34,479 nucleotides of DNA from a virus, in the IMG/VR virus record IMGVR_UViG_3300020411_003746, positions 1 to 34,479 of that record. The stretch is one strand, 5' to 3'. The notes beneath the pieces were generated by a model. That model was not told the origin of the DNA, did no database searches, and saw only the letters and a program-made list of their open reading frames with translations. The position numbers were made by a program, and so were the translations under genes. Below are positions 2,406 through 6,844 of this stretch, piece after piece. The first letter of the stretch is position 1. Every line of letters starts with the position of its first letter.

Positions 2406-2441
2406 GGGGCTTAACCGTAATTTAATTTAAGCTTAAGCCCC
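2406..2441. terminator. Hairpin between convergent genes, possible bidirectional terminator
   Basis: GGGGCTTAA (2406-2414) and TTAAGCCCC (2433-2441) form a perfect 9-bp stem with an 18-nt loop, placed between the gp32 stop and the convergent 623-aa gene, whose stop codon it overlaps. Neither side carries a clear U-run, so the hairpin may stall polymerase or protect 3' ends rather than act as a classic intrinsic terminator. Confidence 0.45.
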
Positions 2442-4282
2442 ATCAAGTCAGTTGCACTAGAAGATACATTAAAATTAAAACTATGTCCACCTGTTGTGAT
2501 ATGAGAAGGTGAACTATTATCTACAAAAACTGGTGAAGAACTATTTCCACCATAACCTGGTGAGTTCATGAGAGAGGAATTCCATCCAAGCATCATTCCA
2601 TTTTCTAATGATTTCGCTGGGTTTGGTAAAAAAGTACCTTCAAAATTATCATCTGGATCACTTCTAAAAATACCAGATTCATAAGGGTTGAAAAATTTAT
2701 CCCAGAAATCCGGATTTTTCTTGTAGAAATCTTCTTCTTTCATAGGTCGCGTATAATTTTCTAAATCAGCTGGATTAATATTTAATTTTTTCATTATTTC
2801 GGCGTTAATGCGACTTGGGGGAAAAATATAATATCCATTATCTACTAATTCTTTAATGGTGAGTCCTGAAATATCTTCAATTAGTTTTCTATCTGTATCA
2901 GACATACTAGCATAATATTTTTCAACAGGGACACTATATTTTTGTTTAAAAATGAATGAAAGTGGTACATTAGAAGGATCATAATTTGGATTATCCATAT
3001 CATTTTTATACATAAATGCGCCTTCATCCATCCCTTTTCTATCCATTCGATATCCTTTTGAGTCACCGGGCCAACGCATTGCACCAATACCACTTGGATT
3101 GATCCAATTCTCAGGATTCTTTGCTGAATCTAATATAGAATCAGCTTCTTTACCAATTGCATCCATCATTTTTGCGATTCTTTCTCCACCAAAATAACCA
3201 AGAACTGCACCCAATATACTTCCAATTAAAAATCCAATAATATTTCCTGGTCCTGGAAATATTGATCCAATGGCCATTCCTGCAAATCCACCCTTTACTG
3301 CACCAGTAAGTGCTCCAACTCCACCAGAACTAGTTCCACCAAGAGCAGCGCCAACTATTGCAGAAAATTTTGAGGTATCCCATTCTTCAGCTTTAAAATA
3401 TCCAGCAATACCGTCAAATATTATAGGTAGAACTGAAAAACCTATTTTACTCATTGCAGCAGCAATACCTAATCCAGCAAATGCGCTTCCTGCTCCAAAT
3501 TTAAATCCTGTAAGAGCTTTTACCCAAGCTATACTTCTAAATTGATTTAATAAGACTGCTCTTAAACCACGTAATAGTCCACCCTTTCTTGGACCCTTAC
3601 CATCTTTACCTGATGGGCTTCCAAATATTAATGTTCTTGCTAATGAAGCTACTCCTAGTGATGCTAATATTGTACTACCTAAAGATAAACCATCACCAAG
3701 AAGATCATCTGGGAGTAATTGTGTAAACCATTCAGAAGAATCTAGTTCTAAACCTTCAATATAATCTCTTAATTTTGTCATTGCTGCAATAATAAGTCCG
3801 CCTAAACCCATTAAACCTAAACTTTTTAAATCAAATCCTTTTGCTCTTTCTTCAGAACCTACTCTTTTTGATGTTCCTTCTATTATTTTTGGTGCGTTTT
3901 CTCTTTTTGCTTCAATGAAAGCTAATGGATCTGATATAATTTTAACGGGTAATGGTTCTTTAAATAATCTTTCTAAATTACTCATCCATAATGTATTTTG
4001 TCCTGGACTACCAGATGATTGTACTCTTGAAACAGGACTAGATGTTCCTCTTGCAAATGGACTAGATAACATTCCATACATACTTGCTTGAGCAAATCCA
4101 GGAAGAAAACCCAAAGCAGATGATGTTAATCCCATCATTTTTGATTCTGTTGCTCTTCTTAAATTACCAGTAGTTTGTGATTGTAAATTTCTTGCGAAAT
4201 CTGCTAAACTTTCTGATCTACCAAGTCTTAATTGCTGTTGACCAAAAGATTTAGTTCCTGTTCCCCCGTATGCTTGTGCCAT
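2411..4282 (-). CDS. Probable tail tape measure protein (gp29-type)
   Basis: A 623-aa, Gly/Ala-rich protein with several strongly hydrophobic stretches at about residues 154-168, 200-220, 262-290 and 306-366. The last is a Gly-rich, glycine-zipper-like run. Tape measure proteins set tail length, occupy the tube lumen and typically carry such hydrophobic segments. T4's tape measure, gp29, is 590 aa, close in size. The main argument is position: the gene directly follows gp26 and its frameshifted extension, the arrangement of tail-assembly chaperones before the tape measure in long-tailed phages. I see no direct sequence match to gp29, so the call is synteny plus composition. The ATG lies 1 nt after the stop of the -1-frame extension and has no clear Shine-Dalgarno sequence, so translation may depend on ribosomes finishing that frame. 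A membrane-active or other structural role is the alternative. Confidence 0.6.
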   Translation of the reverse strand: MAQAYGGTGTKSFGQQQLRLGRSESLADFARNLQSQTTGNLRRATESKMMGLTSSALGFLPGFAQASMYGMLSSPFARGTSSPVSRVQSSGSPGQNTLWMSNLERLFKEPLPVKIISDPLAFIEAKRENAPKIIEGTSKRVGSEERAKGFDLKSLGLMGLGGLIIAAMTKLRDYIEGLELDSSEWFTQLLPDDLLGDGLSLGSTILASLGVASLARTLIFGSPSGKDGKGPRKGGLLRGLRAVLLNQFRSIAWVKALTGFKFGAGSAFAGLGIAAAMSKIGFSVLPIIFDGIAGYFKAEEWDTSKFSAIVGAALGGTSSGGVGALTGAVKGGFAGMAIGSIFPGPGNIIGFLIGSILGAVLGYFGGERIAKMMDAIGKEADSILDSAKNPENWINPSGIGAMRWPGDSKGYRMDRKGMDEGAFMYKNDMDNPNYDPSNVPLSFIFKQKYSVPVEKYYASMSDTDRKLIEDISGLTIKELVDNGYYIFPPSRINAEIMKKLNINPADLENYTRPMKEEDFYKKNPDFWDKFFNPYESGIFRSDPDDNFEGTFLPNPAKSLENGMMLGWNSSLMNSPGYGGNSSSPVFVDNSSPSHITTGGHSFNFNVSSSATDLMGLKLKLNYG

Positions 4283-4283
4283 A

Positions 4284-5188
4284 TTAATATCTTTGCTGTT
4301 GTTGTTGTTCTTTTAATTTTTGTTCTTGTTCTTTTAACCAATTTACTAATAATTCAAGATATATTTGTCTCTCCCAAGGCATCATTTCATTTAACTCTGT
4401 CAGTGAATATTTATGATGTTGCATCAATCCGAAATTCGTCAAATAATGAGATTCGAGATTTTCATGATTGAGCGCTATCCTAAAAAATCCTGCAAGCCCC
4501 TAAGAATAACGATTTCTTCACTACCACAAGCTGGACATTTGTAATTTATTTCATGATATATTGTTGGAGAAGTTTCATAAAACTGTTGAACTTTTAACAT
4601 TTGTTCTTGCGTCAATTGTTCAAAAAATTCTATTCTTTCTTCTTTTGTATAATCTTTAGTTTCATGCATTTTTTCACCTTCTTGTATAAATTCAATACCT
4701 GAAGATAAAAATTCTATTATGTTGTCAGTATTATCATCTGTTAATGATAATAGTCCAGCGGTTAATGTTGGATATTTTAATATAAGTGTAATATCATCAG
4801 TTATTTTTACATTTTTATTGTGTATTGGATTATATTGAATTTTTACTTCTTTTAAATCCAGTTTCATTTGTGTTATATGTTTACATGGATTTGAATCATC
4901 AGAATGTTTAAATTGCATATCAATAACATCACCAATTGAATGTATTCTTAGTTGTAAAAACAACCATTCTATATCAAATGTTGGTAGTTTTTCAATATCA
5001 AGTTCTGATATCATACAATTGTTTACAATTTGTTTTATTGCATTAATTTTTTCAACTTCATCTTCACCTTGGTTAGCCATAAGAAGTATTTTTTCTTCTT
5101 TAACTAAAAATGGTCTAAATGTTATTTGATTTCTAGTTGATGGTAATTCTGTTGAAAATGTCGGGACATCAATTTTTGGTAAAGGCAT
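4284..5188 (-). CDS. gp26 with -1 frameshifted extension (predicted 301-aa fusion)
   Basis: Ribosomes that slip back one base on T TTT TTA (4481-4487) would read 236 codons of gp26 and then 65 more in the -1 frame, ending at TAA 4284-4286. The extension contains LTELNEMMPWERQIYLELL and then a Glu/Lys/Gln-rich helical tail. In the -1 frame a TAG lies about four codons upstream of the slippery site and the first ATG lies well inside, without a Shine-Dalgarno sequence, so the extension has no good start of its own. It fills almost the whole gap between gp26 and the tape-measure candidate. Phages of the lambda type make tail-assembly chaperones G and GT this way. In T4, gp26 and gp51 are separate genes. 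The slippery site and frame geometry are seen directly; the chaperone role is inferred. Confidence 0.7.
4475..5188 (-). CDS. 26: gp26-like baseplate hub / tail assembly protein
   Basis: This 237-aa protein matches the T4 gp26 family in length (T4 gp26 is 208 aa) and layout: an N-terminal stretch with TFRPFLVKEEKILLMA, a central segment on the theme DIEWLFLQLRIHSIGD, and a C-terminal metal-binding-like end with Cys218-x2-Cys221 followed by GLQDFLG. A further Cys102-x-His104 pair may complete a zinc site. In T4, gp26 is needed for assembly of the baseplate hub. Because family members behave like tape-measure chaperones in other phages, assembly factor and structural roles are both possible. Translation starts at an ATG preceded by GGAGAAA (7-nt spacing). 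The last codons contain the slippery heptamer, so this 0-frame product would be the shorter and probably major one. Confidence 0.8.
   Translation of the reverse strand: MPLPKIDVPTFSTELPSTRNQITFRPFLVKEEKILLMANQGEDEVEKINAIKQIVNNCMISELDIEKLPTFDIEWLFLQLRIHSIGDVIDMQFKHSDDSNPCKHITQMKLDLKEVKIQYNPIHNKNVKITDDITLILKYPTLTAGLLSLTDDNTDNIIEFLSSGIEFIQEGEKMHETKDYTKEERIEFFEQLTQEQMLKVQQFYETSPTIYHEINYKCPACGSEEIVILRGLQDFLG
4481..4487 (-). other. -1 frameshift slippery heptamer T TTT TTA
   Basis: Read on the - strand, gp26 codons GAT TTT TTA GGA TAG place the heptamer T|TTT|TTA in exactly the X XXY YYZ register required for tandem -1 slippage. The 0-frame stop follows one codon later. Re-pairing in the -1 frame continues AGG ATA GCG into a 65-codon open frame. 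I see no strong stimulatory hairpin just downstream, so efficiency cannot be judged. Confidence 0.75.
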
Positions 5189-5815: not shown

Positions 5816-6408
5816 TATAGCATTCCTAATGAGTCTTTCCAGACTTTTTGTTTACTTGTGTTGAAATTTTCTATTGGTAAAAATATAACAAATTTTAATT
5901 GATCAGTTCCTTCAACAGTCATACCATTTGTTCCTTGAACATGACTAATTAAATATTGTTTTATACATGGTGCAACAATTTTATTCTTTTTTAAAGAGTT
6001 CCAATTTATTCTTGCACCATATCTTACCGCATCTAACAATCTAGCTCTGTGAGAATATGGTAAATAGTGAAAATTTAATCCCCAAAATCTATCACTTTCT
6101 TTAGAAATGATCATTGACATAGGAAATCTGTCATAATATGGTAATTTTTTAGCATGTTTTGCTCTATATTGAAATAAAGTCAATTTTGCTTCATTAATTG
6201 ATCTAGGTCTTATCAATTTTGATTTTTCTATAAGTTGTTCTGATGTCATACTAGTATCATCAAACGTAACATTCAAATTTCTTCTAAAATTTCTAATTTG
6301 ATGCCTAAGCCATTGAGCAGATCTCTTATTTTCTTGAGATATTTCTTTTCTTCTAATAACATCAGATAGAATATCAACAAAATTTTGACTATTTTTAAGT
6401 TTTGCCAT
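5815..6408 (-). CDS. Unassigned T4-like structural or DNA-end protein, 197 aa
   Basis: A basic, Arg/Lys-rich protein. The recognisable part is about residues 90-128, with LPYYDRFPM, then FWGLNFHYLPY and RARLLDAV. This pattern (YYD-x-P followed by GLNxHYLP) recurs in T4-like phages next to head-completion genes. I cannot name it with confidence. In T4 the neighbour of gene 4 is gene 2, the DNA end protector, so gp2 is one candidate by synteny only. The ATG overlaps the end of gp4 by 14 nt and its own stop overlaps the next start, so it is translated as part of the tightly packed - strand operon. Confidence 0.6.
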   Translation of the reverse strand: MAKLKNSQNFVDILSDVIRRKEISQENKRSAQWLRHQIRNFRRNLNVTFDDTSMTSEQLIEKSKLIRPRSINEAKLTLFQYRAKHAKKLPYYDRFPMSMIISKESDRFWGLNFHYLPYSHRARLLDAVRYGARINWNSLKKNKIVAPCIKQYLISHVQGTNGMTVEGTDQLKFVIFLPIENFNTSKQKVWKDSLGML

Positions 6409-6844
6409 GTTTTTTTCTTCTTTTTTTGATTCCTAGATCATATTCATCTTGAATTAGGAAGTGCCAACCCTTATTTTTACAAAATTCTTCCGCGGCCTTC
6501 CATTTTGCCTCATTTTTTGCGAATTTTTTAGCTTCGTTGATGAATTTTCTTGATTTTTCACGTTTTTTGGGTGGTTTTGTCTCTCTATTTGGCTTAACTT
6601 CAATGATTACGACCTTTTTATTGGCAAATTTTACCCAAAAATCGGGAAAATATCTGTGAATTTTTCTATCTAATGGTGATCGATATGGAATTACAACTTC
6701 TTCTGATGCCCACTCTTCAACTTGTGGACTTAAATCCAGTTTTTCCATAACTTTTTTTTCCCAACCAGATCTATAAACAATTTTAGTTGGATTTCCTCTA
6801 TATTTATTTGGGTTCACTGGTTTATATTTACCTTTTTTAATCAT
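6395..6844 (-). CDS. 4: gp4, head completion protein (nuclease-fold)
   Basis: gp4 is needed to finish DNA-filled heads before tail joining. This 149-aa protein has T4 length (150 aa) and clear matches to T4 gp4: GKYKPVNPNKYRGNPTKI near the N-terminus, IPYRSP-x-D-x-KxHRYFPDF, and KWKAAxxFCKNKGW near the C-terminus. It also shows a complete PD-(D/E)xK nuclease signature: Pro67-Asp68, then Glu82-x-Lys84, with Glu29 in YRSGWE as the usual upstream acidic residue of TnsA-like nucleases. The nuclease activity is inferred from these residues. It is the first gene of the - strand block, 34 nt downstream of the predicted start of a late transcript. Confidence 0.92.
   Translation of the reverse strand: MIKKGKYKPVNPNKYRGNPTKIVYRSGWEKKVMEKLDLSPQVEEWASEEVVIPYRSPLDRKIHRYFPDFWVKFANKKVVIIEVKPNRETKPPKKREKSRKFINEAKKFAKNEAKWKAAEEFCKNKGWHFLIQDEYDLGIKKRRKKHGKT

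Follow-up and report, generated by a model that had tools for sequence, protein, structure and literature searches.

The gp26 homologue of the virus record IMGVR_UViG_3300020411_003746 (IMG/VR) and the -1 frame that follows it very probably form one tail assembly chaperone (TAC) gene, from which a short and a long form would be made by a -1 slip of the ribosome. The window analysed here is the whole stretch of 34,479 nucleotides of this record. We observe a slippery signal at the end of gp26, conservation of that signal among relatives, selection on the extension in the -1 frame, homology to T4 gp26 and gp51, and a likeness to the TAC fold.

Slippery site and reading frames

Both parts of the locus lie on the minus strand, which an earlier reading of the same DNA from its letters (the sequence-only reading) had not given. 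The features, including two candidate stimulators discussed below, are as follows.

4475..5188, minus strand: gp26 homologue, predicted short tail assembly chaperone (TAC-N), 237 aa, stop TAG at 4477-4475
4481..4487, minus strand: slippery heptamer T TTT TTA, P codon TTT, A codon TTA
4284..4481, minus strand: -1 frame extension (predicted TAC-C part), 65 residues plus stop TAA at 4286-4284
2411..4282, minus strand: tape-measure-like protein, 623 aa, directly downstream, weak PHROG matches
4497..4501, minus strand: SD-like AGGGG, possible stimulator, about ten bases upstream of the heptamer
4421..4475, minus strand: possible downstream stem-loop, candidate stimulator, starting 5 nt after the heptamer

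The gp26 open reading frame ends in TTG CAG GAT TTT TTA GGA TAG. The heptamer T TTT TTA is in the X XXY YYZ register of gp26, and a single codon (GGA) separates it from the TAG. Upstream of the heptamer the -1 frame contains a TAG, followed by four codons (GGG CTT GCA GGA) and then the site; the 65 residues of the extension read RIALNHENLESHYLTNFGLMQHHKYSLTELNEMMPWERQIYLELLVNWLKEQEQKLKEQQQQQRY. All coordinates given in the sequence-only reading hold (heptamer at 4481-4487, its register, TAG one codon on), as does its description of a -1 frame that is closed by a TAG four codons upstream, opens for 65 codons and ends 1 nt before the next gene, whose ATG is at 4282.

This next gene, the tape-measure-like ORF at 4282..2411, has weak matches to tail length tape measure PHROGs (phrog_167, 3.6e-5; phrog_23574, 6.1e-5). 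Phages HTVC008M and Cr30 have an annotated tail tape measure downstream of the extension, with one small ORF in between. A position directly upstream of the (weakly matched) tape-measure gene is as expected for a TAC. The window gp26 matches PF12322 (T4_baseplate; E=1.1e-55) and phrog_150 (baseplate hub; E=1.7e-61), and the extension matches phrog_634 ('baseplate hub assembly catalyst', gp51; E=2.8e-25).

Conservation among relatives

Relatives were drawn from IMG/VR and from annotated phages and provided 184 usable loci. Scans of IMG/VR viral contigs yielded two loci with the KVP40-like gp26 query and one with that of OLIVR5; the scan with gp26 of Vibrio 1.255.O returned no loci. An in-register T TTT TTN by the gp26 stop is present in 176 of the 184 related loci, and in every one of these the -1 frame is open for 50-65 codons beyond the gp26 stop. 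This frame is often closed just upstream of the heptamer and is never closed between the heptamer and the end of the extension. The relatives that carry the site include Kyanoviridae cyanophages, Pelagibacter phage HTVC008M (SAR11), Methylophilales phage Melnitz, Caulobacter phage Cr30, KVP40-like Schizotequatrovirus, Sinorhizobium phages phiM9 and phiM19, Agrobacterium phage OLIVR5 and Desulfovibrio phage 7757. Aligning gp26 homologues, a check suggested in the sequence-only reading, thus shows both the heptamer and an open -1 frame to be retained, including in the phages examined of cyanobacteria, SAR11 and Caulobacter and in the KVP40-like vibriophages. The eight loci without the site belong to T-evens and an Acinetobacter phage of T-even layout (L087, L099, L103, L104, L105 and L107) and to the Ackermannviridae (L091 and L092).

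Within a non-redundant set of 108 loci (<90% identity), the codon before the P site is always NNT and the P-site codon is always TTT, against a TTT background of 66%. The A-site codons are TTC (78 loci), TTT (27), TTA (2) and TTG (1); replacement of Phe by Leu at the A site is tolerated, as in the window, and the U6 string is invariant. Because the loci are related and not independent, we attach no formal probability to the conservation of the heptamer.

Several loci show variant arrangements. Sinorhizobium phage phiM9 (L094) has T TTT TTG, the sole heptamer ending in G among the 176. In four loci (L034, L065, L075 and L081) the zero frame of gp26 extends further past the heptamer, so that the slip site is internal to the gene. 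Five loci keep a TAC-C-like -1 extension, recognizable by its MMPW/SMPW motif, without a canonical heptamer. These are Vibrio phages 1.255.O and K471 (L091 and L191), in which gp26 ends in CTT TTY with an overlapping TAATG, and Kuttervirus and Taipeivirus (L092, L192 and L193), in which it ends in GAR ATT TTC ATT TAA. Such extensions may be reached by a non-canonical slip or by re-initiation.

Correspondence to T4 gp26 and gp51

In RB32, a member of the T4 group, genes 26 and 51 are separate and lie on opposite strands. The gp26 profile matches T4-type gp26 (hhalign probability 99.5, E=9e-23, 208 columns), and gp26 terminates at the same point as T4 gp26. A profile of virtual frameshift products matches six T-even-type gp51 sequences with a probability of 98.5 (E=2.7e-15, 237 columns), in an alignment that runs straight across the junction and covers nearly the full length, while the extension profile alone matches the C-terminus of T4-type gp51 (E=2.5e-6). 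The alignment spanning the junction indicates that the frameshift product corresponds to T4 gp51 in full. The sequence-only reading had proposed a fusion of gp26 to gp51; the link by frameshifting stands, but these are not two genes fused, as the product matches gp51 in its entirety.

T4-type gp26 and the N-terminal part of gp51 are paralogues (E=6.8e-8). Judged from these comparisons of sequence, it is T4 that carries two separate paralogues. The abstract of the 2022 paper by Vladimirov and co-authors reportedly states that several groups of T4-like phages retain frameshifting, with T4 relying on separate genes 26 and 51.

Predicted fold

The AlphaFold2 model of the window gp26, made with 67 relatives, has a pLDDT of 93.4. 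For residues 1-95 of this model the top three PDB chains are 3FGX (Z 7.7), 2OB9 (the HK97 TAC; Z 7.5) and 3KLU (Z 7.3), followed by a row at Z 5.6; values of Z below 8 are middling in the structure-comparison tool and can reflect a common arrangement. The three chains align over 83-85 residues at an rmsd of 4.0-4.3, and all are called phage tail assembly chaperones (PMC9603447). Given that three described TACs occupy the first three places, a true relation is likely despite Z <8, and the model suggests that the N-domain of gp26 is likely to be related to the TAC fold. Foldseek alone gave no match to the gp26 model at E <0.001, the TAC matches having come from the VIA re-alignment. A PDB sequence search with the gp26 profile found nothing relevant, and there were no TACs among the matched rows for a model of T4-type gp51, the C-terminus of which is of low confidence. 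Based on the gp51 alignment, the gp26 match and the TAC-like N-domain, we predict that gp26 is TAC-N and that the gp26-frameshift product is TAC-NC.

Selection on the extension and alternative readings

Slippery-looking strings are abundant in this AT-rich contig. The 21 main ORFs of the window (10961 codons) contain 130 canonical heptamers in register, and synonymous codon choice alone, with the same residues, would place a heptamer at the end of gp26 46% of the time. These figures speak for a chance reading, in which an ordinary gene happens to end in such a string, with non-coding sequence beyond. We therefore make no argument from rarity and rely on conservation and selection instead. Of the 130, the gp26 site alone is followed by an open -1 frame of more than 50 codons (67; next best 47), and the heptamer and open frame recur in the relatives as described above. 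The extension has a pN/pS of 0.15 in the -1 frame versus 1.40 and 3.29 in the other frames (67 independent pairs, no sequence being used in more than one). When the window is compared with L008, its nearest distinct relative, dN is 0.083 and dS is 0.726. Purifying selection, for which the sequence-only reading had suggested a test, thus acts in the -1 frame only. Together with the homology of the extension to gp51, these comparative sequence data already refute an origin by chance, to which we give a negligible probability.

A second site in the window is of separate note. In the gp4-like head closure gene (6395-6844, minus strand), an A AAA AAA heptamer lies in register four codons ahead of the stop and is followed by 47 open -1 codons, the second longest such frame in the window. 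There is overlap with the following gene, and the site may be of no significance.

It could also be argued that the extension is coding but is a separate small gene, the short 'gp51', with its own start or translated by re-initiation after gp26. Database records annotate it as such, 49 of the 108 loci have an in-frame ATG or GTG no more than 25 nt from the end of gp26, and TAATG occurs in the nearest relative (L008). However, the remaining 59 loci, including the window, have no ATG or GTG in the extension frame within that distance, and 29 of the 108 lack any ATG, GTG or TTG before +50 nt. The starts found in the window up to 75 nt past the gp26 stop are TTG at +35, TTG at +50 and ATG at +53, and no Shine-Dalgarno (SD) sequence was found for these three. 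Over the 108 loci, the mean anti-SD energy of the best extension start is -1.0 kcal/mol, compared with -4.9 kcal/mol for gp26 starts, and we did not find the combination of own start and ribosome binding site that an independent short gene 51 would have. The absence of an SD-served start noted in the sequence-only reading is confirmed in the window, and no such start is conserved in the relatives. Moreover, the conserved residues of the extension begin right after the heptamer, before many of the annotated starts; its T4-type homologue gp51 is a single uninterrupted protein; and a separate gene would leave the fixed heptamer unexplained. The public records themselves place the start of 'gp51' inconsistently or omit gp51 (among them L095, L096, L098, L189 and L190), and the extension is unannotated in S-CAM8, ACG-2014i and P-RSM1. 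The public cyanophage record regions viewed contain no joined slippage CDS for gp26 and the extension. Overall, we consider a separate gene very unlikely.

Alternatively, RNA polymerase rather than the ribosome might slip at this site, which consists of six or seven consecutive T; a T run is a requirement of polymerase slippage too. Runs of 6-7 T are generally too short for this process to be efficient. In 78 of the 108 loci the run is broken by a C after six T, indicating that long runs are not favoured, and the register X XXX XXN, with its last base free, is the pattern of tandem tRNA slippage. Transcriptional slippage is thus a highly improbable source of the long form, and we prefer a -1 slip of the ribosome at the heptamer.

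Candidate stimulators

Anti-SD pairing energy dips sharply at the G-rich SD-like element upstream of the heptamer, to a mean of about -6.5 kcal/mol in the 108 loci. On average the element is stronger than a synonymous-codon control (-6.75 versus -5.38; 76% of loci), while that of the window itself does not exceed its synonymous control (-5.6 versus -7.07). Downstream, positions 4420-4479 of the window are predicted to fold with -17.2 kcal/mol. The 60 nt downstream of the heptamer in the relatives have a mean z of -1.5 against codon-shuffled controls, versus -0.1 to -0.6 elsewhere, and S-PM2 has a long perfect stem at this place. No single conserved downstream RNA structure was detected with RNAalifold in 100 gap-free loci, and hairpin stimulation therefore stays a candidate only. 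The Rfam search identified no family, and its one sub-threshold match, to a miRNA, was put down to chance.

We tentatively suggest that frameshifting T4-like phages use a compound signal similar to the dnaX cassette, in which the U6 heptamer, an upstream SD-like element and a lineage-specific hairpin would tune the ratio of TAC-NC to TAC-N. The T-evens would then have swapped a ratio set by slippage for two separately expressed genes. We regard this proposal as plausible, with its chances somewhat below even.

Proposed mechanism

From the observations above we infer the slippage itself and its efficiency, a role for the stimulators and the chaperone function. Most ribosomes would terminate at the TAG at 4477-4475 and release TAC-N (gp26, 237 aa). 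On U UUU UUA a minority would move back by one base, probably aided by the upstream SD-like element and the downstream hairpin, and would translate 65 more codons to give TAC-NC (301 aa), the predicted counterpart of T4 gp51. On the model of lambda gpG and gpGT, TAC-N would coat the product of the tape measure gene that follows directly, and tail tube subunits would be brought in by the TAC-C part of the long form.

Relation to previous work and known systems

Frameshifted tail chaperones of tailed phages have long been known. The sequence-only reading had stated that it knew of no described gp26-gp51 frameshift in this group, and this claim to novelty does not hold. The TACs of T4-like phages, gp26 (TAC-N) and gp51 (TAC-NC), are reported to have been identified by Vladimirov, Gautam and Davidson 2022 (Virology 566:9-15). 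As cited elsewhere, it covers poly-T -1 signals in the TAC-N genes of T4-like phages (PMC12846349) and T4-like phages with a short gene and a fused long gene (PMC10885494). In view of these citations the locus is not new in kind, and gp26 here belongs to the same gene family. The contig has UUA as its A-site codon, which is seen in two of the 108 non-redundant loci. The present analysis contributes the number of loci compared, the test for selection, the alignment spanning the junction, the candidate stimulators and the link to a remark by Sullivan 2010 described next; some of these may already be in that paper.

The gp51 of cyanophages and marine vibriophages has been noted to be without the first ~200 amino acids of T4 gp51 (Sullivan 2010, PMC3037559). 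This short 'gp51' is the same reading frame as the extension described here, but in that study it is treated as a reduced separate gene and frameshifting is not mentioned. The oddity would be explained by the predicted frameshift: gp51 seemed short by about 200 residues because those residues come from gp26.

We found 497 phage records matching the extension, which could be checked and annotated as a single gene with ribosomal slippage, and the fused protein could be supplied to proteomics searches. A natural comparison is also offered by phages in which slippage would set the chaperone ratio and by T4 with its two genes.

The lambda gpG/gpGT pair and the siphophage G/GT frameshift family, reportedly described by Levin in 1993 and by Xu, Hendrix and Duda in 2004, share with the present locus the short and long forms, a -1 slip near the end of the first frame and a position immediately before the tape measure gene. 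Gene order and fold support the comparison with lambda G/GT that the sequence-only reading drew. The slippery sequence differs, however, being U UUU UUN here, and we claim no sequence similarity; gp26 is also larger, extending beyond its TAC-like N-domain by a further C-terminal region. Phage P2, with the -1 frameshift of E and E+E' that Christie is said to have reported in 2002, belongs to a different phage group but likewise has a contractile tail, and in it too a -1 frameshift links two tail genes that precede the tape measure. The T-evens (RB32 and Acinetobacter W16) are alike in that their gp26 is matched by gp26 here and their gp51 by the virtual frameshift product, and differ in that genes 26 and 51 are separate, each on its own strand, and the slippery site is missing.
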